Assembly: GCA_026636295.1 (NCBI GenBank)
Contig: CP089465.1
Location: 282,068-346,067 of the forward strand
Source of the DNA: Medakamo hakoo
Taxonomy: Eukaryota > Chlorophyta > Trebouxiophyceae > Coccomyxaceae
Reading direction: 5' to 3'
Length of the DNA: 64,000 nt
Positions within the stretch are counted from its first letter, which is position 1. Every line of letters begins with the position of its first letter. Below the pieces are notes generated by a model. That model did not search any database and was not told where the DNA came from. It saw nothing but the letters and a program-made list of their open reading frames with translations. A program made the position numbers and the translations under genes. Shown here one piece after another: positions 25,205 through 55,298 of this stretch.

Positions 25205-26374
25205 ATGGCGCGCCCGTCCCACGTCCAAGCGAGCCGGCCCCTAGCCCTGGCCTGCGCCGCGCTGGCGGCGTACCTGCTCGTTTTCGGGCGGGGCGGCGGC
25301 GGGCAGTGCACGCATGCGTCCGCCGTCGGCACCGCGTCTGTCTTGAACAACGCCACGGCGCACGCGCCGCCCGTGCTCGACCCGCCCTCGGTGCCCTCTG
25401 GGGGCCATGTGAAGCCACCGTCGCCTCCGGCCCTGGTGTGGGCCGGCCCCAAAGACGCGGCCGTGTCGCGGCGGGTGGTGTGCGACGCCACGAAAATCAA
25501 ACACTCGCCCTCTGTCGGCGCCGCACTCACCCCGCCTCTGAAAGTCGACGACGTGCTCACCCACCTGGTGAAAGCCGCCAAGGCTGCCTCCTCCAGCGTC
25601 ACGGTCCTGGACGTGGGCGCCAACGCCGGCCAGACGGCGGCCACGCTCGCGGCAGCGGGCGCGGACCGGGTCGTCTCGTTTGAGCCGCACCCGCGGACGT
25701 GCGCCGCGTTCCTGGAGGCCGCGGCCCGGCTGCCCAACGCGTCGCGCGTGGACCTGGTGTGCGCGGGCGTCGGCGCGGAGGCGGGCCTGACCGAGTTTGT
25801 CGAGGTCGCGGAGTCCACGTCCTTCATGGAACGCCCCGCCAGTGGCGGCGCCCCCCGGGCCGCGACGGGCCGGACGATGGTCGTGCCCACCGTCACGCTC
25901 GCCGCCGCGGCGTCCGCGCTGGGCCTGGGCACGGGCGGCGTGTCCGTGCTGAAGACGGACACCCAGGGCCGGGAAGCCGGCGTCCTGCTGGGCTACGGCC
26001 CGGACCGGCTGGCCGCGACGCCGGCCGTCGTCCTGGAGTACTCGTTTGGCCTGCTGCGCGCGGCGGGGACGGGCCACGGCGCCCTGCTCCACTTCTTGGC
26101 CGACGCCGGGTTCCAGTGCTCGTACCTGGCCAAGCACGTCATCGGCGGCACGGTGCCCTGGCCGCGGGAGGTGGGGGCCGCGGCCGGCGGGTGCGTGGGC
26201 TTCGACGCGTTCGTGTCGGCCGTGAAGGGCGGGTGGACCAACCTGTGGTGCGAAAACGTGCGCATGACAGGCGGCGGCGGAGGGGGTGGGAGGGGCGGGA
26301 GCGGGGGTGGTGGTGGGCGCAAGGCCGGCGCCGGGAGTGGTGGGGGCGGTGGTGGGCGCCCGCCGCCCGCGTGA
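25205..26374 (+). CDS. FkbM-type SAM-dependent methyltransferase with N-terminal membrane anchor
   Basis: This is an intronless protein of 389 residues. One hydrophobic helix (about 13-28, LALACAALAAYLLVF) suggests a type II secretory-pathway protein. The methyltransferase core begins VTVLDVGANAGQTAATL (about 132-148, the SAM-binding glycine motif), then VVSFEPHPRTCAAFLEA, typical of FkbM family members, and VLKTDTQGREAGVL (about 248-261), the family's later acidic motif. The expected reaction is O-methylation, probably of a sugar or glycan given the membrane anchor and the neighbouring glycosyltransferase. The tail is a glycine-rich run that looks unstructured. It converges on the PKS gene over 156 bp. 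Confidence 0.75.
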   Translation: MARPSHVQASRPLALACAALAAYLLVFGRGGGGQCTHASAVGTASVLNNATAHAPPVLDPPSVPSGGHVKPPSPPALVWAGPKDAAVSRRVVCDATKIKHSPSVGAALTPPLKVDDVLTHLVKAAKAASSSVTVLDVGANAGQTAATLAAAGADRVVSFEPHPRTCAAFLEAAARLPNASRVDLVCAGVGAEAGLTEFVEVAESTSFMERPASGGAPRAATGRTMVVPTVTLAAAASALGLGTGGVSVLKTDTQGREAGVLLGYGPDRLAATPAVVLEYSFGLLRAAGTGHGALLHFLADAGFQCSYLAKHVIGGTVPWPREVGAAAGGCVGFDAFVSAVKGGWTNLWCENVRMTGGGGGGGRGGSGGGGGRKAGAGSGGGGGGRPPPA

Positions 26375-26530: not shown

Positions 26531-29500
26531 TCAAAACCCGTCCACTTTCACCGTCCACGCGTCGCCGTCGTAGTGGACGTGCGTGCGGCCCGCGGCCGCC
26601 GCGGCTTCAGCCAGGCGCGCCCCGAACTGAGCGACCCTGCGGCTGGAGGGCGGGTGGCCCGGCCGCCTCGACGACGGCGGCGGCGCCATGCCGCACAGCG
26701 TGACCAGGGCGGGCACGTTGAGGCCGGCGCCCCGGCCCGGCTTCTGTCCGCTGTCCCACCCGTCGTACACAGCCACGTGCCCGGGCTCGACCGTCAGCGC
26801 GGCCGCGACGTCCAGGCCCCGGACGTCGACGGGCGCCAGGAAGGTCACCTCGCCGACGCCCGCCCGGCCGACGGTGAAGCGGGGCAGGGCGGCCAGGCCC
26901 GCTTCGTCCAGGGCCGCCAGGGCGGGCGCGTCGGGGACCGTGAACCAGGCGCCGTCGGGTGGCAGGACGGGGAGGAGGCCCGGGTCCAGGGCGGGCCGGG
27001 CGGATGGACGACGGGCGCGGTGGCGGTGGCGGTGGTCCCAGTCGCGGCCGGCCGGCCGGGCCGTGTCCGGGTCGGCGCCTGCAGGCAGGTGACCGGTGGC
27101 CGGTCCGCCGCCGCCTTCCCCTCCACTCACAGCAGACGAGCGCCGGTGGTGGCGGTGGCGCCGCCGACGGTGGTGGTGGCGGCGGGCGGTGTCGGGGTCG
27201 TCGACCGCCGGGTCCTTGCCCACGCCGCCGCCTGGTCCGACCTCGACCGCCGGCAGCGCGGCCGCGACGGCCGCGCCCAACTCCGCGACGGACGGGTAGT
27301 CAAACGCCAGCGTGGCCGGCAGGTCCAGCCCCGTGGCAGACGACAGCGTGCGCCGCAAGTCAACGGCGCCGACCGAGTCGACGCCCGCGGCCAATAGGGG
27401 TTCGGTGGGCGCGAGCGGGCGGCCGGCCGCGGCAGACGCCGCGTCCGCTGCCAGGGCCGTCGCCCACGCCAATCTGCCGGCCGCGTCCAGGCCGTGCCAG
27501 GGTGGCAGCGACACGGCCGTGCGCGGCGGCGGTGGGGTGTGCTGGCGGCTGGGGTGGGAGGGCAGGGTGGGCGGCAGCGACGCGGCCGCGGCGAGCGGGC
27601 GGGGTGGGCGCGGGGGGCGCGGCGGCCCAGGGCCGGCCTCCGTGTCCGCCGTGTCCGCCAGGTCGGCGTAAAAGGCCCACCGGTGCCGGCCCCCGCCACC
27701 GGACAGTAAAGCCGGAATCTCCAACGCCGCCACAGCCAGGGCGGCGGGCGTCTCCACGCCGCCGCCCACCACCCGCCCCAGCGGCGCCAACCCCGCCACC
27801 GCGTCCAGGCTGCCCATGCCCGCCCGCGCGAGGCGGGCGCGCAGGGCCGGGTCCGCCGCCATGCCGCCGCCGCCGCCCCAGGCGCCGTACTGCAAGGCAG
27901 TGGAGGGCAGGCCGGCCGCGTGCGTGCGGCCGACGAGCGCGTCCAGGGCCGCGTTGGCGGCGGCGTAGGCGGCCTGGCCGGCAGAGCCCAACAGTCCGGC
28001 GACGGACGAGAAGGCGGCGGCGGAGGACAGGGGCAGGCCCGCGGCCGCGCGGGCCAGGGCGGCGGCGGCGACAGCCTTGGGCGCGCCGGTTGTGCGCACG
28101 TCGGCCGGCGTCGTGCGGGCGAGGGCGCCGTCCGCCAGTGCGCCGGCGGCGTGGACGGACGCGGCCAGCCGGTGTGAGGACGCGCAGCGGGCCAGGGCCG
28201 ACGCGCCGGCCCGGGTGGCCGCGTCCGCCGAGACGCAGGTCAGGGCGGTGGCGGGTGCGGCAGCAGCCGCCAGCACAGGCGGCGGCGCCCGCCCCGCCCG
28301 CCCAGCCGCGATGAGGTGGGGCGGCCGGGCGAGGCCGCCGCCGCCCTCCGCCAGGAACGCGAGGACGAGCGCGCCCAGGCCGCCCAGGCCGCCCGTGACG
28401 AGGGCGGCGCCGGTGCGGCAGCGGGACGGCGTGGCGGCGGCTGTGCGGCGCGTCCGGCGCAGCGCGGGTGCAGTCGCCAGGCCGGACGCCGCGACGGCCG
28501 CGCCGTGCGGGGTGTCCAGGCCGGGCGGGAGGGGGGTGGTGGAGGTGGGCGGCCGCGCGCGCGGCCGCGCCCATCCGTCCGCTTCCACCACGCCCACGGC
28601 CACGCCCAGTTCCGCGGCGGCGGCGCGGGCCAGGCCGGTGGCGGCCGCACACGTGACGGCGGTGTGCGTCGCGCCGGCCGGGCGGGCCGGGCCGGCGGCG
28701 TCGCAGCAGCCGACGACAGAGGCTGCCAGGCGCGGCGGCGGCGCGGCCGCTGGCCCGCCGCCCACCACCGCCCGCAGCGCGGCCAAGGCGGACGCCGGGT
28801 GGGCGGACGCGGTGGCTGTCAGACCTGGCACGCGCCAGGAGACGGGGGTGCGGTGGCGCGGTGGGGCGGGTGCGGCGGACACAACCTCCGTCGCCCGGCC
28901 TTCCACCGCCCACTCGACCTGGCGACGGGCGGGGGGTGGGGGCGGTGGCGGTGGCGGTGACGGTGCCACCTCCATGGCCGCAGCCAGCAGCCCGGCCGCC
29001 TGGAAGGCGGGAGAGGTGGACGGGCCGCCGCCCAGCACAGCCGACGCGGCGGAAGCGAGGCCGCCACCGCCCACGCCGCCGTCTTCGGCCGTCGCCCAGG
29101 CCCGGCCGCCGCCGCCGCTGTCGCCGCCGTCGCCGTCGCGCGTCGCCAGCACACACCCGGCGCCGACGGGGACCCGCGGCTCGCCGCTGCCCAAGGCCAG
29201 GCACAGGTGGAAGGCCGCGTCGCCCGTGGCGGGGTGGATGGCGTGGGTGGTGCAGTCGGACGGAGGGGCCAGGGAGGCGAGGGCGAGGGGGCGGGTGGTG
29301 GCGGGCAGGGCGCGGAGGATGGGCAGGCGAGGCGGGCGGGCGGGTGGACGGTCGACGGCCGCACCGACGCCAGCCAGGTCGCCCGTCAGGTGGGTGGTGG
29401 CCGCCCCCCTCCCCACGCGGACCCGGCCTGTGACCAGGTCAATGGTCACGTCCACGTCCAGGCCGGAAGCCGCGGGCAAGGCGGCCGGCGCCGCGATGGC

Positions 29501-32500
29501 CGCGCCCGTGAGCGCGGGGGGCGGGCCGACGGCCGCGAGCGCGACGGGCGACCAGCCCAGCGCCGCGCCGGCCGCCAGGACGGCTCCAAACAGGGCCGCA
29601 GCCGGGATGAGTGCCCGGCCCCGCACCCGGTGCTGGCGCAACAGGGCCGTGGGCGGGGAGGCGCCGACGCCCGCCCACGCCAGCGTGGCGGTGGACGTGG
29701 ACGCGCGCGAGGCAGACAGGCCGGGCGGCGGCGGCGGCGGGGCCGGCCACGCCCGCGCCCGGCGCCAGGGCAGGGACGTTGACGGTGGGACAGAGCCTGT
29801 GGCAGGCCCGCCGACCACCAGGGCGTGCGCGTTGACGCCGGACATGCCGAAGGAGGACGCGCCGGCCGCGGGGCGGGGGGAGGTGTGACCGACCGGCAGC
29901 AGCCAGGGAGACGGGCCGTGTCCACGGGGCGCAGTCGCACGTGCGCGCTTGTCGCCGCACCACCCGTCCAGCGCCGTCCCGACATACGGGTTGACAGACC
30001 GGAGGGCGGCGACGGGCAGGGCGGTGCGCGAACGCACAGCGTGCATCGCGCCCAACAGCCCGGTCACGCCCGCCGCGCCTTCCGTGTGTCCGAACGCGGC
30101 CTTGGTCGCGAGCAGGGCCAGGGTTGGGGTTGTTGGAGCGCCGGCCGGCCCGCCGCCGCCTGCCAGCGCCGCGCCCAGGGCGCCCAGCTCGACGGGGTCG
30201 CCCAGGGGCGTGCCCGTGCCGTGCACGGCGACGGCGGCGACGGAGGTTGGAGTGACGGTCGCGGCGGTGGTGGCGAGCGCGGCCCGGACGAGGGCGGTTT
30301 GCGCGGGGCCGGACGGCGCGGTCAGCGACGACGACCGCCCGTCCTGGTTGACGGCCGACCCGGCGAACAGGGCCAGGCCGCCGTCCTCACCTTCACCCAC
30401 AGGCCGCAGCAGGACCACGCCAAAGCCTTCGCCACGGCCGTACCCGTCCGCGGACGCGTCGAACGTCGCGCACCGCCCCGCCCGCGACAGCGCGCCCAGC
30501 AGGCAGATGCGCGCGGTCGTGGTGGGCGTCAGCATGGCGTTGACGCCGCCCGCAATTGCCGCGCCCGCTTCGCCCGCGATCAGGGCCGCCCGGCCCAGGT
30601 GCGCGGCCACCAAGGACGACGAGCACGCCGTGTCGACGGCGACGCACGGCCCGCCCAGGCCCAGGGTGAACGACACGCGGCCGACCAGGAACGACAGGCC
30701 GTGGCCGGTGATGGCGGCGCCCGCGGCGTCCGCCACGCCCGCGGGCGCGGCGACCGCGTCCAGGAATTCGGTGTACATACAGCCCGCGTAGACGGCCGTC
30801 GTCGTGGACGGCGGCCGGGCGGGGTCGGGTGCGCCGATGACGACTTCGGCCACGCCCTCCAGCAGCGCGCGCGCTTGCGGGTCGAGGGCCGCAGCTTCGG
30901 CGGGCGGCAGCCCAAAAGCGGCCGCGTCGCAGGCGGCCAGGCTGACGTCGGCGGGCGTGGACGTCGCGCTGAAGAAGCCGCCCAGGCGGACGTACGCCTT
31001 GTGCGGGCTGCCCGCGTCGACGGCAAAGGCCGCGTCGGCGTCCCAGCGGTCGGCCGGGGTGGGCGTGGACGCGTCGCGGCCGGAGGCCAAGCCGGCGGTG
31101 AAGGCGGCCAGGCCGGACGGGTAGTGTGTGGACGCACCCGCTGCCGGCCGGCCAGGGAAGCGGGCCCAGGCGGCGGCGATGGCGATGGCGGGGCGGGCGG
31201 GCGAGGCGGCGGCCGGGTCGCCCAGGCGCGGTGGGAGCGGGGCTGAAGGCAGGGCCGCGGCTACGTCCCCGCCTCCGCCTGCGCCCACCATGCCCGCCAC
31301 GGCAGTCGCCATGGCCAGGAGGGTGGGGTGGTCCACCGCAAACGTCGCGGGCAGGGACAGGGGCTTCCCGCCCCCGACGGCGGCCCCCGCCTCAGCGGCC
31401 GCGGACCGCAGCTCGACCGCGCCCAGCGAGTCCAGCCCCGCCGCCATGAGCGGTTGGTCCGGCCCCACGGCGCCGCCCATGATGGCTTCAGCCGCGGTGG
31501 TGAGCAGGGACAGAATGGTGGCGGTGGATGGCGGCGGACGCCGGGCGGCGGCGGGCGCGGCGGGCGTCGCCTCACCACCGCCTCCACCACCGCCCAAGCC
31601 AACAACCCCGGCAAAGAGCGGGCCGCCCGCCCGGTGACGCGGCGCGCCGGGGCCGGCGACCAGCCGCTCCCACTCGAAGCAGCCGACGGCCAGGACTGCA
31701 GGGCCTGGATCCCCGCCCGCGGCAGCCGCCGCCGCCCGTGCCAGGCCGGCCAACCCGGCGCGCGCCGGCATGGGCGGCAGGCCGCCGCGGGCGAGGCGGG
31801 CCGCGACGACGGCCTCGCCCGCCATGCCGGCCGCCCACGCGCCCCACTGGACGGACAGGGCGGGGAGTCCCTGCGCTGCCCAGGCGTGGGCCAGGGCGTC
31901 TAGGCCCGCGTTGGCAGCCGCGTACGCGGCCTGGCCCGGCGCACCGAGCAGGGTGGCGGCCGAGGAAAAGGCGAGGGTGGCCGCGGCGGGCGCGCCGGCG
32001 AGGACGGACCTGCGCAGCGCGGCCGCGGCGCCGGCCTTGGGAACGGCCGCGGCCCGCAGGGCGGCGGGGGTCTGACGGTCGAGGAGGCCGTCAGCGAGGA
32101 CGCCGCCGGCCAGGTGGACAGCCGCCAGGCGAACGGTGGGGGTCAGGCGGCTCAGGCCCGCCGCGTCGGCGGCCGTCGCCGCGTCGGCCGAGAGCGAGGT
32201 GACGAGGGACGACGGCGCGGCGACCGCGGCTGGAGGCAGGGTGGGCGTGCGCCCGCTCCGCCCCACCAACAGCACAGGGCCGGCCGGCGCGGCCGCGCCG
32301 CCGGCCAGGGCGCCGACGGCGCCCAAGCCTCCGGTGATGAGCGTGGCGCCTGGGCGGCAGCGGGGCGGGGGTGGCCGGGGGCGCGTGGTCCGGCGCCGGA
32401 CCAGGCAGGGCGCGTGCCAGGTGCCGTCGACCGCAGCCGGCCCGTCGACCGCCGCCACCGCGTCCGGCGGCTGGGCGCCCGGTTCCCAGACCGAGGCGGC

Positions 32501-35500
32501 CGAGGCGACCGAGGCGGCCCACGCGCCCGGCGCGCCCTCGACCGCAGCCGCTTTGATCAGGGCGACAGCCGCGGCGGCGGCGGTCGCGCCGGCCCGCTGC
32601 CCACCGCACGCGCTGGACGCCTCCACGCCCCCCACGGCTTGGAGAACGCCGCCACGCCCGCGCCGCGCCGCCTGCTGCACGGCAGCCAGGGCGGGCGGGG
32701 CGGTCGCTCCGGAGCGGGCGCCGATGCGCCAGGTCGGTGGTGGGTGAAGGGCACGAGCCTGGCGGCCGCGCGGCCGCCGCCGCTCCACGGGCACGGCCGC
32801 CCGCCACTGAATGGCGTAGTCTTCCACGCGCGCGGCGGGCGTTTTGGGAGCCGCGGCCGGCGCCGCTCCACCGCCACCGCCACCAGCAACGGCGCGCGAC
32901 TCCAGGCCGGCCAGGAATGAGCCGCCACCGTCGCTGGCCAAGCTGGCATAGTCGGCCCGGGTGGCGGCCGCGTCGGACGAGGGCAGTGGCGCGCCCACCG
33001 CCCAGGCCGGGGGGCGCGCCTCGCTGGCCCGGCCGTACGCGGCGGCCGCGACGGGGACGCGCGCGGGCGCGCCCGCCGCCACCGTCGCGCCCGCGCCAAA
33101 CGCGACGGCCGTGTGCATGGTCGCGTCCACGGACGCCGGGTGGACGCCGGCGCCGATGGAATGGGTGGCCGGGGTGGACAGCCTGCCCAGGACGGCAGCG
33201 GCGGTGGAGGGCGGTGGAGGCGGCGGGCGGCGCAGCTGCAACAACAGAGGGCGGCGGGGTGCAGGCGCTGCACCACCAGCCGCCGCCACAGCCGGCACGG
33301 CGCGGCCGCGCGCGTGCACGGCCTCGCCCGCCCGCCCATCCACAGACGTCGCCGTCGCCTCTCCCGTCGCCAGGGCCAGGCTCACCCGCAAGGCTGGGTC
33401 CCGGCCGGCGCCGGCCAGCAGCAGCGGCGCGACCAGGCCCACCGCCGCGAGGCAGACCCCCGCCCCGCCCGCCGCCGTCGCGCTCGCCGCCCGCACCGCC
33501 TCCAACAGCGCCGCTCCCGGCACGACCACCCTGCCGGCCACGCGATGGTCGCGCAGCCAGGCCAACGCGGGTGTGGAGGCCAGGGGAGGGCTGGCAAAGG
33601 TAATGGCGGATGACGTGGCAGCGAGCGCGGCGCACACCAGGCGGTGCGCGGCCGGGAAGGGCGAGAAGCGGGAGCGGCGCCAGGGGAGGGCGGGCGGCGG
33701 GGCGGGCGGTGGAGGGCCGCCCGCCCGCCTCGATACGATGACGTGCGCGTTCGTGCCCTGGAAAGCGAAGGCTGAAACGCCGACGCCGGGCGCGGAGGCG
33801 GCCGACGCGAGCGGCGCGGCCGACCGCGGCACGGCGCACTGGCCGCCGCCTTGCAGCGCCGCTGCCACGTGCGGGTTGAGGGCCCGCAGGGTGGACACGC
33901 CTTCCAAGGAGCGGGCGTGCAGGACCGTGACGGCCCGGGTCAAGGCGGCAGCGCCAGCCGCCGTCTCGCCGTGGGCGGTGGACGCTTTCGCGGCGGCGAG
34001 GGCGACGCGCTGCGCAGTGTGGCGGCGGGCGGCCAGCCCCGCCCCGGCCGCCGCGCCGACTTCGATGGGGTCGCCCAGCGGCGTGCCGGTGCCGTGCATG
34101 TGCAGGGCGACGATGGACGACGGCTCAGCGCCGGCGTCAGCCAACGCCGCGCCAATGACCCGCGTCTGGGAGGGGCCGTGCGGCGCGGTCAGCGAGGACG
34201 ACCGGCCGTCTTGGTTGACGGCGCAGCCGGCGAGCAGGGCGGCCGGCGCGGACCCGCGCCCGCCCTCCTCCTCCACCCGCCGCCACAGCAAGACGACGCA
34301 CCCCTCCGCCCGGCCGTACCCGTCGGCGGCCGCGTCCAAGGCCTTGCACCGCCCGTCCGGTGCGAGCATGCCCGCAGCCGCAAACAGGGCCGCGACGGGC
34401 GCGGCGGACGGCAGGGAGGCGCCGCCGGCCAGGCCCGCGCCGCCGGCGCGCGCGCGCAGCGCCGACGCGACAAAGGCTGTCGCGACCAAGGACGACGAAC
34501 AGGCCGTGTCCAGGGCGATGGCCGGGCCTTTGAGGTTGAAGGTGTACGAGATGCGGCCCGCGGCGGCGGACGTGGCCCGGCCTGTGCCGCGGTACGCGCC
34601 CGCGCCCGCCCCCGCGTCGGCCGCCGCGTCGGCGGGCGTGTCGGCCAGGCGGGCGAGGCCGAGGGCAACGAGGGTGGGGCGGGAGTCTTCCAGGCTGCCG
34701 TCGACCCGGCCCACCAGCACTTCCGCCGCGGCTTCGAGCAAGCAGCGTTGCAGTGGGTCGGCCGCCCCCGCTTCAGCGGGAGGGAGGTTGAAGGCGGCCG
34801 CGTCGAAGGATGACACGCCGGCCAGGCAGGCCGCAAAGCGGGTGGTGGGCGGCGGCGCGGCCGGGCCGTCCGTGTCCCAGCGGGACAGGGGGACGGGCGC
34901 GACGGCGTCGGCAGACCAGGTCAGGGCGGCGGCGTGTCCGGCGGGCATGCGGCCGGCCACGGCGTCCAGGGCGATGAGGGCGGGCGGCGGGGCGGGACAG
35001 GACGCGGCGGGGAGGGTGGGCGGGATGGGCGGCTGCGGCGGTGGTGGTGCCGGACCGACCTCCTCCACCACCGCCTCCGTCGCCTGGACCAGTCGCCCCA
35101 CAAACTCCGCCATGGCTGCCACGGTCGGGTAGTCGTAGACGAGCGTGGCCGGCACGTCGGCCAGGTCGAACGCCCGGGCGACCGCGTTGCGCAGCTCGAC
35201 GGCCGCGAGGGAGTCGACGCCCGCGGCCGCGAGCGGCGCGTCGCGGGGCAGAGGCGTGGAGCCGCCGATGACGCGGGCGACGGCAGCGGAGATGGTGGCT
35301 TCGATGGAGGCCGGCGTGTGGGCGGTGTTGGTGGGCTTGGGCGGTGGGGTGGCGGCGGCCGGCGCCGCGTCGCCGCCGTCCGTCGGCCCGGGCGCGACCG
35401 CGCTGTAAAAGGGCGAGGCCGGCTGGGGCCGCCCGCCGCCCGCGACCGCGCCCCAGTCAAACACGCCCGCCAGGGCGACAGGAGGCGGCGGCGCACTGCC

Positions 35501-38500: not shown

Positions 38501-41500
38501 CTCCAGCAGCGGGCAGGCGCGGGGCACGCCCCACACCCGGGCCCGGCGCCAGGGAAGTGGGGAGGGTGGTGGGACGGGGACGACGGCGTCGCCTCCCCGC
38601 CCGATGAGGGCGTGCGCGTTGGTGCCGGACATGCCAAAGGACGACGAGCCGACCAGGCCGGCGCCCCACCCACCGCCGCCGCCGCCGCCGCCTGCCTGGC
38701 GTGGCACGGCAGGCGGTGGGCCGCCACCACCACCTCCGCTGTCCCAATCGCTCAACGCCAGTCTGACGTGCGGGTTGAGCTCGCGCAAGTTGGGGATGGG
38801 CGCCCAGCCGGAGCGCGCACGGCCGGCGCAGCCCAGGGCTGCGACCAGCCCCACCACGCCCGCCGCGCCTTCCGTGTGGCCCACGCACGCTTTGGGGGAG
38901 GCGAGCATCAGGCGGGCAGGGTTGCCGGCCAAGCCCGCCGCCGCCGCGTTCAGTTCGATGGGGTCGCCCAACGGCGTGCCCGTGCCGTGCAGGACGAGGC
39001 CGGAGGTGGGGGGAGACCCAGGGCCCGCGTCGGCGCGCGCCTCGGCCAGCAGGGCGGCCTGGGCCGGGCCGGAGGGCGCGGTCAGCGCGGACGCGCGGCC
39101 GCCCTGGTTGACGGCCGTGCCGGACAGGAGGGCCAGGCAGGGCGGCGCGTCACGACGCCCGTCCGCGCCGACGACGAGCAGGGCGGCGCCGGCCTCGCCC
39201 CGCCCGTACCCGTCTGCGCCCGCGTCGAGGCTTTTGCACCGGCCGTCGGGCGCGAGGGCGGCCAAGCCCGCGATCTTGGCCGCCGACCGGGCGGACAGGA
39301 ACAGGTTGACGCCGGCCACCAGGGCCGCGCTGACGGACGCGGGGCGGGACCGCAGCGCGCCGGCGGCCAGGTGCGCCGCGACGAGCGACGACGAGCACGC
39401 GGTGTCGACCGCGGCCGCGGGGCCGGCCAGGCCCAGGGCGTACGAAACGCGGCCGGCCAGGAAGGCGGGGCCATTGGCGGTGATGGATGGCGGCGCCAGG
39501 TCGTCCAGGCCGGTGGGCGCCGACGCGTCCGCCGCAAAGTCCGTCGCCCACATGCAGCCGACAAAGCACGCGACCGGCGCGCGGCCGGCGGGCGCGCGCG
39601 CGCGCGCGGGCACGGGCAGCCCCCCTCCCGCCACCAGCGCTTCCGCGCACACCTCCAACGCCAGGCGGGCATGCGGGTCCGCGTGCACGGCTTCGGAGGG
39701 GGACATGGAGAACGCGTCCGCGTCAAAGTCGCGGGAGTGGGCCAGCGTCGCCGCCAGGCGGGCGTAGACAGGCAGGCGCGGCGGCGGGGCGGGCGGCGCG
39801 CGCGCGCTGCCGGGCAGCGCGCCCGCGTGCGCGTCGGCGCACCAGCGCGACGGCGGCAGCGCGGTGACGGCGTCGGGCGCGCCGGGCGTGGCCGCCCAGG
39901 CATGCCAGGCCAAAGGAGACGCAGTGGACGCGACGTCGGCGAGGGCGGGCCCAGGCAGGCGAGCGGCGGCGGCCGTGATGGCGAGGACGACGGGGCGGTG
40001 GGTTTGGGTGGGGGGCGGCGGCGGCGGCAGGGGAGGGAGGGGAGGCGGCGGCGCGCGCGCGCGCGCCGGTGCGCCCACCCCCACCACCGCCCCCGCCCGC
40101 CCCAGGCGCGCATCCACCGCCGCCGCCAGGGCGACCGCCGTCCCCGCTTCCAGAGCGATCGTGGCGGGCAGGGTGACGCCGAAGGCGGCCGCCAACGCGT
40201 CCCTCAGCTCGACGGCGCCCAGGGAGTCCAGGCCCGCCGCGAGCGCGAGCGGCGCGTCGGGCGGTGGCCGGGCGCCCAGCGTGGCTTCCACCGCGTCCAA
40301 GACGGAGGCCAGGGTGGTTGGGCCGGGCTGAGCAGGCGGTGGCGGTGGTGGCGGCTGCGTCTGCGGCGGCGGCGGCGCACCGTCACCGGCCGCCCCAGCC
40401 TCCTGCGGCGGCAGGAGGGCCGCGAAAAAGGCGCCGGCCGGCAGGGCGCGACCGCGGGCGGCGGCCGGCCACTCGACGCGCGCGACCGTCAGGCACGCCG
40501 GCCCCGGCCCGCCGCCATCCACCTGGTCCAGGGCGGCCAGGCCTTCGGCAGGCTCGATGGCGCCGTGGCCCGCCCTGCGCAGGCGGGCCAGGAGGCCGGG
40601 GTCCTCGGACGTCGCCATGCCGGCGCGCCACGCGCCCCACTGGACGGCCGCGGCGGCCCGGCCCCCGCCCGCCGCCACGCCCTCCACCCACGCGTCCAGG
40701 GACGCGTTGGCGGCGGCGTACCCGGCCTGGCCCGGCGAGCCGAGCAAGCCAGCAACGGAGGAAAAGGCCAGGGTCAGGGCCGGTGGCGCGGCGGCGGTGG
40801 CGCGGGCGGTGGACAGCGCGGCGCACAGTTTTGGCGCGGCCGCGGTGCGCAGCGCGGCCGGCGTCTGAGCGCGGGCCAGGCCGTCCGCCCGGGCGCCGCC
40901 GCACAGGATGAGGGTCTGCAGGCGGCGGTTGGTCAGGGCGGCGACCCCGGCCGCCCCTGCCGCCGTGCCGGCGTCGCAGGCCGCGACGGTGGTGAGGGCG
41001 GCGCCGGTCGACGGCGGCGGGTGGCCGTGGGCCGACCGGCCCACCAGCACCAGGCGGGCGGCCCGTCCGCCTTCCACGGCCCAGGCCGCGACGAGGCGGC
41101 CCAGGCCGCCTGTGCCACCCACGATGCAGGCGGCACCGGTGGTGGTGGGCGTGTGGAGGTGCGCGCCGAGCGGGCGCCGCCGCGCCGGCAGCAGGGCCGG
41201 GCTGGCGGCGCACCCGTCGGCGGTGGCCAGCCCAAACTCACTGCCGCCGCCGACGTGGCTGCGGTCGCGGCCGCCGCCCCAGGGCGAGCTCAGCACCCAC
41301 GCCGCGCCACTGGCCTCGCCCTCAGACACGGCCGTGCGCAGCGCCGCGGCCGCGGACGAAGTGGACGGGCTGGGCCGGCCGGCCAGGGTGAGGCGGGTGG
41401 CGGTGTTGTTGGTGCGACCGCCAAAGACGGCGCGCAGGGCCGCCGCCGCCGCGGAGACGGGGTGGGTGCGCGCACGCACGCGTAGCCAGGGACGGGCAGG

Positions 41501-44500
41501 GGGCGAGGGCGCAGCGCCGGCCGGCTCGTCCACCCGCCAGGAGACGGCGAGCGTGCGGAGGGGCGGGGCGTCGGGCGCGGGGGCGGGCGTGGGGGCGGCG
41601 GCCACCGCGGGCGCCGCAGCGGACGACACCAGGCCCACCCAGCGCACGGGGAAAGCGCGGCTACGCATCAGTCCAACGTCTGCCGCATCCTCCGTCCCGG
41701 CCGTGCACGCCCACCCACCCGCCCTGCCCTCCTCGCACCGCTCGGACGGCAAGGCCACTGCACCCAGCGCCGTCGGCACGCGCGCGGGCGCCTCACCCCG
41801 CCTCCCCGCTTCCAGGTGCAGTGCCGCGTCAGCGCAAGCCGGGTGGGCGTGGTAGCCGTCGGCCGGGGTGGCTGGCGTGGGCGGGGCGACGGTGGCGAGC
41901 GCGGCGGGGCGGTGGAGGCGGGGGTGGAGGCGGGCGACCGGGGGCGCGCGACGACGGCCAGGCCCCTCCTCGCCCGGCGCCGACACCGCGCACAGGCTGG
42001 CCGTGGCGGCCGTCCCGGCAGAGGCGGTCCCGATGGCGACGCCACCCCCGCCCAACTCAATGTCCACCGTCAGCTCCGGCCCGCCCGCCCGGCCGAGGAC
42101 GATGGGCGAGGTGAAGGCCGCAGCTGTGAGGGCGGCCAGGGCCGCCGCCGGCGCCAGCATGGCGGCCGCCGCGCCGGCCGCTTCCACCATGGCGGACGCG
42201 GGCAGGAGAACGCGCCCGCGGACGACGTGGTCGCGCAGGCAGGCCAGGGCGGGCGCGTCCAAAGCGGCGACAAAACGGGCGGTGGAGGGGGTCGCCCCGC
42301 CGCCGCCCGCCGGCATCACCAGGCGGTGCGGGTGCGGGCCAAACCAGTGGCGGCGCCGGCGCCAGGGCAGGGCCGGCGGGGCGGCGACGCCCTCGCCCGG
42401 CGCGCAGACAATGCCATGCGCGTTGACGCCGGACATGCCAAAGGACGACGTGCCGACGGCGGCGGACGCGGCCGCGGACGCGGGGTGGGCGGCCGGGCCG
42501 GCCGCGCGCGGCACAGCCGCGCCGCCCCACCGCCCGAGCGCCGACCCGACGTGCGGGTTGAGCGCCGCCACGCCCGCGACGGGCGGGCGCGTGCGAGACC
42601 GCAGGCCGCCCAGGGCGGCCAGGAGACCCGTCACACCCGCCGCGCCTTCCGTGTGGCCGAAAGTGGCTTTGACGGACGTGAGCGTCGTCTTCGTGGCGGA
42701 CGGGGCAGGCGCGTCGCCGCCCAGCGCGCCGGCCAGCGCGCCGACTTCGATGGGGTCGCCCAGCGGCGTGCCCGTGCCGTGGACGACGACGCAGGTTACA
42801 GCGGCAGGCGTGGCAGAAGAGGCCACAGCTTCCCGCACCAGCGCGCTTTGCGCTGGCCCGGACGGCGCGGTCAGGGAGGCGGACCGGCCGTCCTGGTTGA
42901 CGGCCGTGGACGCGAGCAGCGCGAGCGGCGCGGCCGCGCCGCCCTCCCCGCTGCCACCCTCCCTGCCGCCGCCGCCGCGCGCCAGCAGCAGCGCGGCAAA
43001 GCCTTCCCCACGCCCGTACCCGTCCGCCGCCGCGTCAAACGTCCGGCACCGGCCGGACTTGGACAGGGCTTGCAGGGCGCAGATGCCGGCGGTGGTGCCG
43101 GCCCACAGCAGGGCGTTGACGCCGGCGACCAGAGCCCGGCCGCACTCGCGGCTCGCCAGCGCGGCCCGGCCCGCGTGCGCGGCGACGAGCGAGGACGAGC
43201 ACGCCGTGTCGATGCCGTGGCAGGGGCCCGCCAGGTCGTAAGTGTACGCGGCCCGGCCGCTGAGGTAGGGCGACCCGATGCCCGTCATGACGGGGCCGGA
43301 CGGGCCCATGCCGTAGGCGTGGCGGGCCACGTCGGCCGCGTCCCAAAACATGCACCCGACGAACGTGCCCGTGGTGGTCGCGTGCGGCGGCGACGTGCCG
43401 CCCGCGGCCAGCACCTCTCCCGCCAGTTCCAGCAAGCGGCGGGCTTGGGGGTCCAGCGCCACAGCATCAGGTGGGGCCAGGTCCAGGGCCACCGCGTCGA
43501 CGCCGTCGAAGCCGTGCGCCCACGCGGCCAGCCGGACGGAGCAGGAAAAGGGTGAGCGCCGGCCGGGCGGGGCGGCGCCCCCGCCTTCGGCGTCGTACGT
43601 CTTGTCCACGTCCCACCGGTCCAGCGGAGTGGGGGACTGGGGGCCCGACCCGGTGGACAGGAGAGCCCAGAAGGAGGCCAAGCCAGGGCCGGGCAGGGGT
43701 GGAGACGCGGTGGGAGGGACGGCGGGCGACGAAGGGAAGTGGCCCGCGGCCGCGACGACGTGGGCGAGCGACGCGGTGGGCGGCGCCGCCGCCGCGTCGG
43801 CCAAGGCGGGCCGCGGCGGCGGCTGTGCCGCCACCACCACTGGCCGCCCCTGCGTCCCTAGCCTCCTCGCTAGCTCGTCCGCCAGGGCCGCCGGCGTCGG
43901 GCAATCAAACGCCAGCGTGGCGGGCAGGCCGGCCAAGCCCGTCGCGGCGCCCAGCGCGTCGCGCAGCTCCAGCGTGCCCAGCGAGTCGAGGCCGGACGCC
44001 ATGAGCGGGGCGGTCGGCGGGAGGTCGGCGCCCACGACGCGGCGCAGAGTTGACAGGACAAGGGCCAGGGTGTCGAGCGGGGGTGGTGGTGGGGGTGTGG
44101 CGGCGGTGGGTGGGGCGGCCGGCGGCGGTGGTGGCGGACCGGCCGCCTCTTCCAGGCGAAGCCGCGCCCGCGCGGGCGCGGCCAGGACGGCTTCCCACGC
44201 GAACGAGCCGACGACGCCCGCACAGGCTGGGGCGGCCATGAGGACGGACAGGGCACGCAGGCCTGCGGCCGGCGGCATGGCCAGGAAGCCGGACCGGGCC
44301 AGGCGCGACGCGACGGCGCTCGCCATGCCGGCGCGCCCACCCCACGCGCCCCACGCCGCGCACGACACCGGCACGCCGGCGCCGGCGCGCCCAGCCGCCC
44401 AGGCCGCCACGCCCGCGTTGGCGGCGGCGTACGCAGCCTGTCCAGCATTGCCCAGCGGCGCGGACGCGGACGCAAAGACGTGGGAGGCGCGGAGTGGGGC

Positions 44501-47500
44501 GGCCGCGGTGGTGCGGCGGGCGAGCGCGGCCGCGGCCGCGGTCTTTGGCGCGGCGGCAGTGCGGACGGCGGTGGGGGTGAGGCCAGCCGCGGGACCGTCG
44601 GCTAAGGAACCGCCGGCCAGGATGGTGCCGGCCAAGCGAGAGGTGGGGTGGGTGGCGGTCAAACCGGCCGCGTCGGCGGCGGTCGCCGTGTCCGCGGACA
44701 GGGCCGTGACGAGGGCGGTGGGACAGAGCGTGGATGGCACGTCGGTGCCCCTGCGCCGGCCGTCCCGGCCGACCAGGATGAGGGAGGCGCGTCCGCCACT
44801 CTGTTCAGTCAGCCATCGCGCCGTCAGGCTGCCCAGCCCGCCCAGGCCGCCCGTGACGAGCCAGGCGCCGGGCGGCGGTCGGCGGTGGGGTGGCACGCGG
44901 GCGCGCCAGGGCGCCGCGACGGCTGGGCGGCGGACGACGCAGCCGCCGTCAGTGTCGTCGTCGCCAGGACGCAGGCCAGCAGCCAGGACCGTGGCGTCTT
45001 CCAGGGCGGCGCACGCCAAGGCCGCGCGCACTGCCGGGTGGGGAGGGAGGGACGGGCGGGGACGGCGGCCGGCCTGCCGCACCGCGCGCACGGCGGCCAA
45101 GGTCGCGGCGGGTGTCGTGGTGGTGGTGCGGAGCCGGCGGGGCCGGCCACGCCGCACCACCGGTTCCTCCACCAGCCAGGCGTCGTCGTAGATGGCGGCG
45201 GCCCTTTTCCAAGGGCCCGCGGCCGGACCAGGCGCGGCACTGCCCCCCAGCGGGCGAGACTCCAGGCCAGCCAGGCACGCGCGGCCGACCAAGGAAAAAG
45301 TGGCGAGGGCGGAGCCGGGGGCGGCGCCGGGCGTGCGGGCACCAGCACACGCATGCAGGTCACCCTCTGCATCCGCAAAGTCCGTGGGCGCCGCGCCGGC
45401 CGACGCGTGGACGGCCAGCACGCCGCACGCGGCGGGCACGCGCGCGGGCGAACCCTCCCCATCCGCCAGCGCGCCCATGTGCGTGGCCGCGTCCAGGCGG
45501 GCCGGGTGGGCGCCGTACCCGTTGGAAGAGGCGGGCGTGAGGGCGGGCGCCACGCTCGCCGTCCACCCCGGTCCGGGGAGGAGCAGGCGCGAGGCGGAGG
45601 CGGAGGCGAGGCGCGCCCGGGGCGGCGCCAGGGGGAGCGAGGCACGGCTCGGAATGGGTGTGGTGGGCACGCCCGCCACCCGTCCGCTTGCCAAGGTCGT
45701 CAGCGCGCCCGCTGCACCGCCAGCGACGACGACAGCCCCGGTCCGCGTGTCCACCGACACCGTCAGGTTGACAGCGGCCGGCGCGGACAGCAAGAGTGGA
45801 GCGACCAGGGCGGCGGAGGTGAAGGCTGGCGCCGCGTCCTCCGCCAGCACGCCGCCCGCAGCCCGGCCCGCTTCCAGCATGGCCGTGCCCGGCAGGATGG
45901 CGCGACCGCGGACGACGTGGTCGCGCAGGTAGGAGAGGGCGGGCGTGGCGGAGAGGGACGTGGCGAAGAGGGCGGCGGACGCGGACGCAGACGCGTGCGC
46001 GAGCAGGCGGGCCGGCGGCGGCACGCACCACACCCGCGCCCGGCGGAAGGGCAGAGCGGGTTGCGTACGGTGGTCGGGCGCGCAGCCCGCCCCACCAGCC
46101 ACAACGACCGCGTGCGCGTTGGTGCCTTGGAAGGCAAAGGCAGAGACGCCGACGGCGGGCGTGGAGCCGGGGTGCGCGCACCCGGCCACCCCGGGCCCGG
46201 GCGTCCGCGCCGCGTGCGCCCGGCCCAGCCCGACCGCGTCACACACGTGTCGGCTGGGGGTGGTGAGGCCCGGCAGCGGGCCGCCCGCGGACCGGGCGGC
46301 CAGGCGGGCGAGGGCGTGGGCCAGGCCGACCGCGCCGGCCGTCGGTTCGGCGTGGCCGGCCCAGGCCTTGGCCGCGGACAGGGGCAGCAGGGGACGGTGG
46401 GGGCCCGGGCCGCCCAGCGGCAGGGCGCCCACCGCCGCGCCCACCTCAATGGGGTCGCCCAGCGGCGTGCCCGTGCCGTGCATTTCCAGGCCGGCGAGCG
46501 CGAGGCGGGTGGGCGGGGGCAGCGCACGCGCCGCGCCGTCCCAGGCCGCGCCAATGACCCGGCCTTGCGCCGGCCCGGACGGTGCGGTCAGGGACGCGGC
46601 GGACCGGCCGTCCTGGTTGACGGCGACAGCGGCCAAGGCGGCGAGAGGCGAGGAGGCAGCGCCGGCGGCGGCGGTGGCGGCCGACAGGCCGACCGCGACC
46701 GCGGCCTCCCCCCGCCCGTACCCGTCTGCGGCCGCGTCCAGGGTTTTGCACCGCCCGTCGGGCGCGAGCATGCCCGCGCTGGCCAGGCCGCGCACGGTGG
46801 CCGGGTCCAGCGACAGCAGGGCGCCGGCCAGCAGCGCGCGCGAGCTGCCGCCACCCGACGACGCCAGCTCGCGCGCCAGCAGCGCCGCGCCCACGAGCGT
46901 GGAAGAGCACGCGGTGTCGACCGCGAGGGCCGGGCCGCGAAAGTCAAAGGTGAAGGCCAGGCGCCCGGCCGCGACGGACAGGCACTTGCCCGTGGCGGCG
47001 TACGCGTCACCCGTGTCGGCCAAGGACGGGCCGCACAGGGTGGCGTAGTCCCAGAAGGACAGGGCGGTCGCGACGGCCGTGGAGGTGGAGGTGGGGGTGG
47101 GGGTGGAGGTGGGGGTGGGCGTGCGCCCCCCACCCGCCCCACCCCACGCCCCACTCACCACCACTTCCGCGCCGACCTCCAGGATGAGGCGTTGTTGTGG
47201 GTCCAGGCGAACGGCTTCCGCGGCGGACGCGACGCCAAACGCGGCCGCGTCGAAGCCGGCCGCGCCCGGCAGGTAGCGCGCAAAGCGGGCAGAGGGCGGC
47301 GCGGCGTCGGCATCCCACCGCTCCAGCGGGACGGCGCGGGCGGTGTCAGGGGTGAGGGCGCCCGTGGCGACCAAGTGTGACGGCGGACCGGGCAGGCGAG
47401 TGGCGACGGCGTCGATAGCGATGACGACGGGCGGCGGCGTGGCCGATCCGCCGACGACGGGGGTGGGTGGAGGCGGCCGCGCGACAGCGGCTGCGGCGGG

Positions 47501-52540: not shown

Positions 52541-55204
52541 TCATTTCAACCCTGCCGCCGCCATGGCTTGCGCCAGCCGCCCCGCCGCGGCCGGGCTGCC
52601 CTTCCACCCGCGGCCGCCGGGCGAGCGCGGGGGCGTGAGCGTCGCGCCCGCCGTGCGCGCCGCCATGGCGGCCAAGCGCGCCCGGGCCACATCATCGTCT
52701 TCCCGCTCCACGTCCGGGTCGGCGGCAGCAGCCGTGGACGTGTTGATGGGCGGCGGCCGGGCGGCGGCGGCTGCCGTGGTCGCACCCGCCGCCGCGGCAG
52801 CCGCGCCTTCGGCGACCGCCCGCCGCAGCGCCAGCAGCTCCGCCGTCCGCGCGTCCAGCGCGTCCTCCAGCTTCTGGATGCGGCCGTCGTAGGCGTCGAC
52901 CTCGGCCTGCAGCGCCTGGAGCTGGCCGTCCCGCTCGGCCAGGCGCTGGGTCAGGCCGGTCATGATGTCGCGCTGGCGCTTGAGCAGGGCGACATACCGG
53001 TCGGCCTGGTCGGTGGAGTTGGTGGACGACGACGACGGCCCCGCGCCCGCCGCCGCGGCGGCTTCCAGCTCTTTCAGCCGGGCCTCGTACTGGGCCCGGA
53101 TGCGGGCGTGCTCGGCAGCCAGCCGGGACTGGAAGGCGGGCGACTCCTCCAGCGGCGCGCCGCCCACCAGGAGTTGGGACTGCATGGCCGCGATGCGGGC
53201 TTCCAGCCGCCGCTTCTCCGCCTTTTCCGCCAGCACCTCCCGGGACCGGGCTTCCAGGGCGGTGACGGCGGCCAGCTTGTCCGCTTCCGCCCGGCGGCGG
53301 CCCTCCTCCAACTCCAGCAGGGCCCGCTTGTCCACCAGCGTCTTGGCCCGCTCCCGCAGCTCGGCGCGCAGGCGGCGCAGCTCCACCTCGTACTTGCGCA
53401 GCAGCGTGCGCTGGTCGCCCACGTCCTCGTTGACGCGAGGCGCGTTGACCACCGTCTTGGCCCGGGTCGCGAACTTGAGCGTGGACAGGGACTCGGCGAA
53501 CGAGCAGGCGGACGGCGACACCGTGGCCACCAGGGTCGTGACGCAGTTGCCGCCCAGCGAGTCTTCCAGCAGGCGGGTCAGCTTGGAGTCGCGGTACGGG
53601 ATGTGGCCGCCGCTGGACGGCGCGCCCGGCTGGCCGCGGCGCTTGGGGTCGGTCAGGGCGGCGATGACGTTGCCAAGCGCGGACAGCGACTGGTTGATGC
53701 GCTTCGACTCTTCCAGGCGGCGGCCGGTCGCGCCCGTGACGGACACGCGCTCGGAGCCGGCCAGGTCGACCAGGTGCAGCTTGCCGACGCGGACGCGGGA
53801 CGAGGACGACGGGCCCGCGGGCTCGTCCACCCCACCGCCGCCGCCCTCCTCGGACGTCGCGCACCGTTCGACCGTGATGGTCAGCACCGCGTGCGAGCGG
53901 GACGACGCTTCGTTCAGCCGCGTCGCGCCCGTCGCGCGCGCGTCCCGCCCGCGCTGCATGAGCGCGTGGACTTCCGCGGGCGACCGCACCACCCATTCGG
54001 ACAGGCCGTCGACGAACACGCCCCGGCGCGCGTCTTCCCGGATGGGCAGGTTGGCGCGCTCCGGGCGCAGCAGGTCGGAGACGGACTCGTTGTAGATCTG
54101 GAGGTACGACGCGCGGACGAGGAAGCGGGTCGGCGGGGCGGACGCGTCGCCCGCGGCGCCGCCCGCCTGGTCGCTGTGGATGCGCGCAAACGCTTCTTCG
54201 ACGGCTCGGGGGATGATGCCGCGGGCGTCGCCGTCCGGCGCGCCCTCCATGGTGTGCGTCTTGCCCGCGCCCGTCTGGCCGTACGCGATGACGGCCGCGT
54301 TGTACCCCGCCAGCACGGCGCGGACGGCGGGGGAGGCGGCGGCGGCGTACACGTCGGCTTGGGTGGCGGTGGGCGGGTAGACTTCGTCAAAGGCGAAGCG
54401 GTAGGTGGCCGCGATCAAAGCCGAGGCCGCGTCCGAGGGGGCGGGCGTCGCCGCGGCGTCACGACTGCCGTCGACGGCGCGGACGACGCCCGGGTCTTCG
54501 GACAGGACCAGCGACCGGGCGCACGGACTCACGGCCAGGGCCGGTTGGTAGCCGCGGATGGAAGAGGCTTCGCGCGGGAGGGGTGGGCGCACGCGGACGA
54601 CGACCTGGGGTGGTGGTGGTGGATGGGTGGGCGGTGAGGGGTGGTGGCCGGGAATGGCCGCCCGCGCGCCGCGGGGCGGCGCGCGGGCGCCGCGAACCGA
54701 ATTTTTGGCTGGTCCGCAGCAGCCGCCCGCGCCCACCCTGCCCTCTTCCTGCCGCTTGCTCTCAGCGCAGGATGGATTCAAGCGTCGATTGAACCGACGC
54801 GCCGCCCCCACCCCCGCGCCCCTCACCTTGAAATTGTCGGCCGGCGGAGGCGGCGCAGCCGCAGCCAATGGCGCCGCGCTGGGCGCGGCTGGCGTGGAGT
54901 CCACGCCAGCCGGCCGGCGCAACATGCACGCGTCCAACCCTGTGGCCGGGTCGAACTCGCGCACGTCTTCAGACACGGACCTGGCCGCCAGAGAGGGCGT
55001 CGCGCCGCTCTCGCCAGCCAGCCACGCTTCGGCGTCTTCGACGGCGTGCGACGGCAACATGTCTTCGTTGTCGCGGCGGCGGCGGCGGGCGGGCGAGGAG
55101 GACGCCGCCTGAGCCGGGTGGGATGACGGGTCAGACGCTGGAGGTTTGGACGTGCGCAGGAGGCGGGACACGCCCAGGGTGGCGGCCACGGCTGCGAATT
55201 TCAT
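52541..55204 (-). CDS. Kinesin motor protein, N-terminal motor
   Basis: This is a microtubule-dependent ATPase motor. Exons are 54827-55204 and 52541-54604, giving 813 residues. The phase 0 intron of 222 bp lacks stops but has a GTGAGG donor and a CCCCAG acceptor right before VVVRVRPP, the first strand of the motor. The P-loop GQTGAGKTHTM, switch I NEASSRSH, switch II LVDLAGSERV and the terminal motor helix (HIPYRDSKLTRLLEDSLGGN, STLKFATRAK) are all intact. An Arg/Glu/Lys-rich stretch after the neck predicts a coiled coil of about 300 residues, and the tail is Ala/Ser-rich. The first 126 residues are low-complexity. I cannot assign the subfamily. The start is the first ATG (55202-55204). Confidence 0.88.
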   Translation of the reverse strand: MKFAAVAATLGVSRLLRTSKPPASDPSSHPAQAASSSPARRRRRDNEDMLPSHAVEDAEAWLAGESGATPSLAARSVSEDVREFDPATGLDACMLRRPAGVDSTPAAPSAAPLAAAAPPPPADNFKVRGAGVGAARRFNRRLNPSCAESKRQEEGRVGAGGCCGPAKNSVRGARAPPRGARAAIPGHHPSPPTHPPPPPQVVVRVRPPLPREASSIRGYQPALAVSPCARSLVLSEDPGVVRAVDGSRDAAATPAPSDAASALIAATYRFAFDEVYPPTATQADVYAAAASPAVRAVLAGYNAAVIAYGQTGAGKTHTMEGAPDGDARGIIPRAVEEAFARIHSDQAGGAAGDASAPPTRFLVRASYLQIYNESVSDLLRPERANLPIREDARRGVFVDGLSEWVVRSPAEVHALMQRGRDARATGATRLNEASSRSHAVLTITVERCATSEEGGGGGVDEPAGPSSSSRVRVGKLHLVDLAGSERVSVTGATGRRLEESKRINQSLSALGNVIAALTDPKRRGQPGAPSSGGHIPYRDSKLTRLLEDSLGGNCVTTLVATVSPSACSFAESLSTLKFATRAKTVVNAPRVNEDVGDQRTLLRKYEVELRRLRAELRERAKTLVDKRALLELEEGRRRAEADKLAAVTALEARSREVLAEKAEKRRLEARIAAMQSQLLVGGAPLEESPAFQSRLAAEHARIRAQYEARLKELEAAAAAGAGPSSSSTNSTDQADRYVALLKRQRDIMTGLTQRLAERDGQLQALQAEVDAYDGRIQKLEDALDARTAELLALRRAVAEGAAAAAAGATTAAAAARPPPINTSTAAAADPDVEREDDDVARARLAAMAARTAGATLTPPRSPGGRGWKGSPAAAGRLAQAMAAAGLK

Positions 55205-55298
55205 TCGGTGTCTGTCTGTCGGCGGCGCCCGAACCAAAACCTGTTCGCCTCCTCGCTCGCACTCACACTCGCTGGGTCCCAGCCCCCACTACAACGCC
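55205..55298. promoter_or_regulatory. Bidirectional promoter shared by kinesin and dynein light chain genes
   Basis: Only 94 bp separate the two outward-facing start codons. The promoters and 5' UTRs must overlap, which favours co-regulation of two microtubule-motor components. No factor site is recognised. Confidence 0.55.

Follow-up and report, generated by a model that had tools for sequence, protein, structure and literature searches.

What does a nucleoporin domain do at the end of a polyketide synthase (PKS), in the place of a thioesterase? The question is raised by a locus of Medakamo hakoo, a green alga of the Coccomyxaceae (Trebouxiophyceae). The genome paper gives the published genome as 18 contigs (2 organellar), 15.8 Mb and 72.7% GC and calls nucleoporins highly conserved; the word polyketide is absent from the main text of that paper (PMC9871001). 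A paper on M. hakoo mutants mentions neither PKS nor nucleoporins. The genome analyzed here has 16 contigs totaling 15,638,232 bases, and the window is a stretch of 64,000 nucleotides from one of them (CP089465.1, positions 282,068 to 346,067).

Architecture of PKS-A

The minus strand of the window carries a PKS that we designate PKS-A. A Pfam scan found KS, KR, DH and ACP domains repeated along a single chain, the organization of a type I modular PKS, and a profile search of the genome assigned it six KS and seven ACP matches. A carrier domain comes first at the N-terminal end. PKS-A gave no match to the acyltransferase (AT) profile PF00698, and neither the Pfam scan nor the genome profile search detected a thioesterase after the last ACP. 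Features of the gene are listed below in window coordinates; P0006 is a metagenomic relative described in a later section.

26531–52540, minus strand: PKS-A, AT-less modular type I PKS frame, 8669 residues from the first ATG
51533–51622, minus strand: second part of the leading carrier domain (ACP0), apparently split by an intron (carrier profile match, converted coordinates)
50567–51334, minus strand: KS1 (KS profile match)
46682–47347, minus strand: KS2 (KS profile match)
42977–43687, minus strand: KS3 (KS profile match)
39173–39871, minus strand: KS4 (KS profile match)
34274–34930, minus strand: KS5 (KS profile match)
30401–31186, minus strand: KS6 (KS profile match)
27866–28408, bounds approximate, minus strand: KR6, in the last module (Pfam scan and pairwise comparison with P0006)
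27266–27427, minus strand: ACP6, the last carrier, with a GVDSV phosphopantetheine site (PF00550)
26996–27238, minus strand: His/Arg-rich linker of 81 residues from ACP6 to the terminal domain (comparison with relatives)
26534–26995, minus strand: Nup98-type autoproteolytic domain (APD) with a conserved lead-in, ending in Phe
26531–26533, minus strand: stop codon of PKS-A

The true start of PKS-A is probably a Met near 52276, about 264 bases inside the first ATG, and its first ACP probably contains an intron. This apparent intron lies at roughly 51.6–51.7 kb of the window on the minus strand, just past the phosphopantetheine site. An apparent intron in the last ACP of P0007, another metagenomic relative, also falls just past that site, and the two positions are a few residues apart within the domain. 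Two neighbors flank the gene. A kinesin frame (window 52541–55237, minus strand) stops a single base short of the first ATG in the PKS-A frame, and an FkbM-type methyltransferase gene (window 25205–26374, plus strand) converges with the 3' end of PKS-A at a distance of 156 bases. The methyltransferase could act in the same pathway as PKS-A.

A Nup98-type domain that has lost its cleavage residues

A preliminary description of this DNA had proposed that the PKS ends in a Nup98-type APD, fused in the position of a thioesterase and resembling a post-cleavage form. Our results confirm each of these observations. The terminal domain, which follows ACP6 directly after the linker, scored 71.2 bits against PF04096 (Nucleoporin2), whose curated cut-off is 28.4. 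When the PKS tail was compared with Pfam at E values up to 10, PP-binding and Nucleoporin2 were the only families found, with no docking-domain family among them, and NCBIfam returned no match. Structure prediction, suggested earlier as a check, likewise gave the APD fold: among five models computed for the isolated APD, pLDDT was 79.8 in the top one, 68.8 in the second and below 50 in the remaining three. The APD part was poor in a 337-residue model of ACP, linker and APD (pTM 0.32), and Foldseek matches of that model to Nup98, with an rmsd near 16 Å, were excluded from the fold evidence.

PF04096 was found at two places in the genome, PKS-A and a canonical Nup98-Nup96 gene on contig 5 with FG repeats (PF13634) and an intact HFS site. 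PKS-A has no PF13634 match at E 0.001; such repeats ahead of the APD would mark a Nup98 orthologue. Its APD is 42% identical to that of the alga's own Nup98 over 133 aligned positions, and 38 to 42% identical to canonical APDs.

The chemistry of peptidase S59 is an N-to-O acyl shift. Active members have a His before the P1 Phe and a Ser or Thr after it, and PKS-A has neither: VDHF in the Nup98 of the same genome is VDGF in PKS-A, and a stop codon directly follows the terminal Phe, the residue at which a mature domain ends. The PKS-A domain is a second, divergent APD, apparently in the mature, cleaved form. With the chemistry gone, binding is its most likely role, and we consider it highly probable that the APD serves the PKS as a conserved binding module incapable of cleavage.

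Recurrence and conservation of the fusion

The preliminary description had also called for a search for the same C-terminus in related proteins. The order ACP-linker-APD does recur in metagenomic relatives, once together with a KR. Five relatives, P0003 to P0007, were recovered as three matches among 1963 candidates and two among 8000 scored candidates, the latter being those with the most shared words. P0006 has KR, PP-binding and Nucleoporin2 domains, all above their cut-offs, in one frame of 704 residues. P0007 combines the APD with the latter half of an ACP (20.5 bits, just short of the 20.8 cut-off), ahead of which lies an apparent intron, and P0003 consists of linker and APD only. P0004 and P0005 show an APD and no visible PKS domains; given these two, the dead terminal APD may represent a wider family. 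P0003, P0006 and P0007 all have KVDGF at the C-terminus. For P0003 to P0007 in that order, the longest metagenome contigs measure 1518, 8370, 40383, 7372 and 5144 bases. No giant protein with the same tail was found at E 1 or better among 2101 candidates with lengths between 0.55 and 1.75 times that of PKS-A. Two scans of viral contigs yielded 58 and 149 pattern matches and prokaryote genomes yielded 271, none of which was confirmed, and phage records gave no match.

Comparison of PKS-A with P0006 showed identities of 107/153 in the APD, 112/180 in the KR, 83/93 in the ACP and 13/33 in the linker. By this measure, in the one comparable pair, the APD is conserved as tightly as an enzyme domain. 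Identity in the linker is low, yet a basic cluster is present in PKS-A, P0003, P0006 and P0007; the net charge of the linkers as cut is +8 in M. hakoo, +3 in P0003, +1 in P0006 and -1 in P0007. An APD tree of eight rows, too weak to position PKS-type relative to canonical APDs, resolved only a group of PKS-A, P0006 and P0003 (97/97) and left P0007 unplaced.

These relatives bear on the concern that the tail is a captured 3' piece of Nup98, a misassembly or an exon of a separate gene. Such an origin would fit the ease with which frames stay open at this base composition (wrong frames of the same gene were open over 76 codons in 445 and 541 of 860 samples) and the drop of third-position G+C to 0.80 in the linker. 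It conflicts with the presence of the same fusion, with the same end, in P0006 as well as in P0007 (ACP incomplete), with conservation of the APD at least equal to that of the KR (the single pair PKS-A and P0006), and with a linker devoid of Met. The assembly was built from PacBio reads size-selected at 15 kb, at 246.8x, according to its description in the genome paper (PMC9871001). The recurrence of fusion and exact end, together with conservation, disfavors the captured fragment raised by the preliminary description, and we regard an artifact of any of these kinds as extremely unlikely.

Relatives also bear on whether the APD aids polyketide release, a further suggestion of the preliminary description, or autoprocesses the PKS. 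Occupation of the thioesterase position speaks for such a function, but Gly stands at the position of the catalytic His in PKS-A and all five relatives, and the terminal Phe is the end of the protein in PKS-A and four of the five, P0004 being longer by a single Leu. With both His and nucleophile missing, a thioesterase-like or autoproteolytic function is disfavored, and a part in chain release appears very unlikely.

A second PKS and proposed docking between subunits

If the APD is a binding module, its ligand becomes the central issue. We prefer docking between PKS subunits as the explanation, because a second PKS, here termed PKS-B, exists on another contig:

contig 1, 158733–117793: PKS-B, second AT-less modular PKS, frame of 13,646 residues (profile matches)

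Read across three frames, PKS-B would start near contig 1:159528. It has ten KS domains, nearly all within the 13,646-residue frame, and a methyltransferase in its first module. A KS comes first, preceded by a tail about 170 residues long, and the protein closes with ACP-thioesterase, the best thioesterase match of the genome; a further thioesterase match lies in a short frame on contig 5. KS1 carries the active-site motif DTACSASL, the first HGTGT of PKS-B comes after KS1, and no carrier domain precedes KS1 in PKS-B's own frame. With its motifs intact and no upstream carrier in frame, KS1 presumably receives its chain from a carrier located elsewhere. No DTAC motif was seen in the part of KS3 covered by the match.

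Genome-wide, there were 22 KS matches: 6 in PKS-A, 11 in PKS-B, where the two pieces of KS1 count separately, and 5 outside both, in short frames whose lengths range from 81 to 678 residues. The 24 carrier matches were distributed among PKS-A (7), PKS-B (11), an NRPS-like frame (3), an ACSF4-like enzyme (1) and short frames (2). Beyond PKS-A, the genome showed no modular PKS except PKS-B. AT matches numbered only two in the entire genome, with none in PKS-A or PKS-B. In a KS tree of 16 rows, with one starred split and 10 of 13 inner branches unresolved, KS domains of PKS-A and PKS-B were intermixed in two shared groups. The NRPS-like frame, of 3903 residues on contig 10, contains AMP-binding, condensation and carrier domains, with hexapeptide-repeat stretches at its end.

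In the docking model, a dead Nup98-type APD would have moved to a PKS C-terminus and been retained as a binding module. PKS-A would be the first of two subunits in an AT-less assembly line, and its APD, on a flexible basic linker, would serve as a C-terminal docking domain that grips the N-terminal tail of PKS-B and lets ACP6 hand the chain to KS1 of PKS-B. The model for this interaction is the grip of the Nup98 APD on the N-terminal tail of Nup96. With no residues past the Phe and no His, the domain would stay open and ligand-accepting, as after cleavage. From sequence considerations we tentatively propose PKS-B as the partner of the PKS-A APD. It is plausible, though short of probable, that evolution has recast a pore-anchoring domain as a docking domain between subunits: with its cleavage chemistry lost and its end placed exactly at the mature C-terminus, it would offer a lasting socket to the N-terminal tail of the following synthase. 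Sequence, model and relatives together demonstrate the homology, the fold, the missing catalytic residues, the end at the Phe and the recurring fusion; the functional assignments are inferred.

The APD lies where a docking domain is expected, past the final ACP on a thioesterase-less subunit, and a candidate partner begins with a KS. Docking is favored by this position together with the absence of a thioesterase, by a partner that starts with a KS, by the fact that no further modular PKS was seen, and by the concentration of 17 of the 22 KS and 18 of the 24 carrier matches in PKS-A and PKS-B. Against docking, the N-terminal tail of PKS-B has no [FYW]G[LIVM] triplet, in an APD-ligand motif search that covered Nup88, PKS-A and PKS-B, and 762 of 1000 shuffles were as good as the comparison of this tail with the Nup96 N-terminus. 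The two PKS genes are on different contigs, and the recognized ligands of APDs are nucleoporins, candidates for which exist in the genome. The tail of PKS-B includes an acidic stretch (-7 in 36 residues) that could pair with the basic linker of PKS-A, a charge match that is suggestive only, since the whole tail is +6.

The APD might also dock a different target, such as a trans-acting acyltransferase, a thioesterase or a modifying enzyme, or link PKS-A into multimers. The scarcity of AT matches noted above means that trans-acting partners are needed, and there is the short-frame thioesterase match on contig 5. Yet one APD per PKS-A would serve chiefly the last module, and we rate these targets as unlikely.

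Possible anchoring at the nuclear pore

The PKS-A APD may instead still bind what its ancestor bound, the beta-propeller of Nup88 or the N-terminus of Nup96, and fix the PKS to the nuclear envelope or to the pore on its cytoplasmic side; a tether of this kind was also among the suggestions of the preliminary description. Yeast Nup116 offers a precedent, with a C-terminal APD that holds it there. In PDB entry 2aiv, this part of Nup116 is termed a nuclear pore targeting domain. Binding of the Nup98 APD to both the Nup96 N-terminus and the Nup88 propeller is described in PMC11148069.

Both Nup98-Nup96 and a Nup88 candidate are encoded by the M. hakoo genome. The candidate, on contig 8, matched PF10168 at 3.7e-5 with 22.2 bits, just below the cut-off of 24.4, and in a comparison with PDB it matched NUP88 at 1.1e-10. 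Its only [FYW]G[LIVM] triplet, FGL, aligns with FGV of Chaetomium Nup82; this loop is the element that enters the APD groove. The KP..G.GLN.PA loop of the APD is moreover retained in PKS-A, P0003, P0006 and P0007, and is absent from P0004 and P0005. Several considerations weigh on the other side. So large a PKS has no evident use at the pore, where it would compete with Nup98; its APD has diverged from the canonical form to the degree given above and has lost the His; and anchoring leaves the missing thioesterase and the KS-first PKS-B unaccounted for. To judge from these sequence comparisons, a pore anchor is possible but less probable than docking between PKS subunits, the explanation that we prefer.

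Significance and relation to known systems

No PKS with a Nup98, Nucleoporin2 or peptidase S59 domain was found in the open-licence full-text literature, where a paper containing both 'polyketide synthase' and 'nucleoporin2' uses the terms apart. Because that literature yielded no such protein, a type I PKS that terminates in a nucleoporin APD appears to be new. It joins nuclear-pore assembly and polyketide biosynthesis in one protein. If docking is correct, PKS-A would offer a docking domain that is large, folded and eukaryotic in origin, and that might be used to join synthases; a pore tether would position a biosynthetic enzyme at the nuclear envelope. Under either reading, a self-cutting domain without catalytic residues would have been retained as a binding module. 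Binding or localization could tell the two apart in this alga, whose small genome is published.

Compared with the APD of vertebrate Nup98 and fungal Nup145N (peptidase S59, PF04096), that of PKS-A has Gly in place of His and no P1-prime residue, and it is fused to a PKS without FG repeats. Yeast Nup116, with its pore-targeting C-terminal domain, is an FG nucleoporin, whereas the carrier of the domain here is a PKS. Rice APIP12, a plant nucleoporin2-domain protein, shares PF04096 with PKS-A (PMC9504543). It has no PKS and is not known to carry FG repeats. Within M. hakoo, PKS-B resembles PKS-A in its KS, KR and ACP domains, in the lack of an AT match and in the same two KS groups, and differs in beginning with a KS and ending with ACP-thioesterase. 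The docking domains of bacterial modular PKS are short helical or coiled elements, and we know of no PKS docking domain that is an APD. The likeness of the PKS-A APD to them lies in its place after the last ACP, on a thioesterase-less subunit with a candidate KS-first partner.
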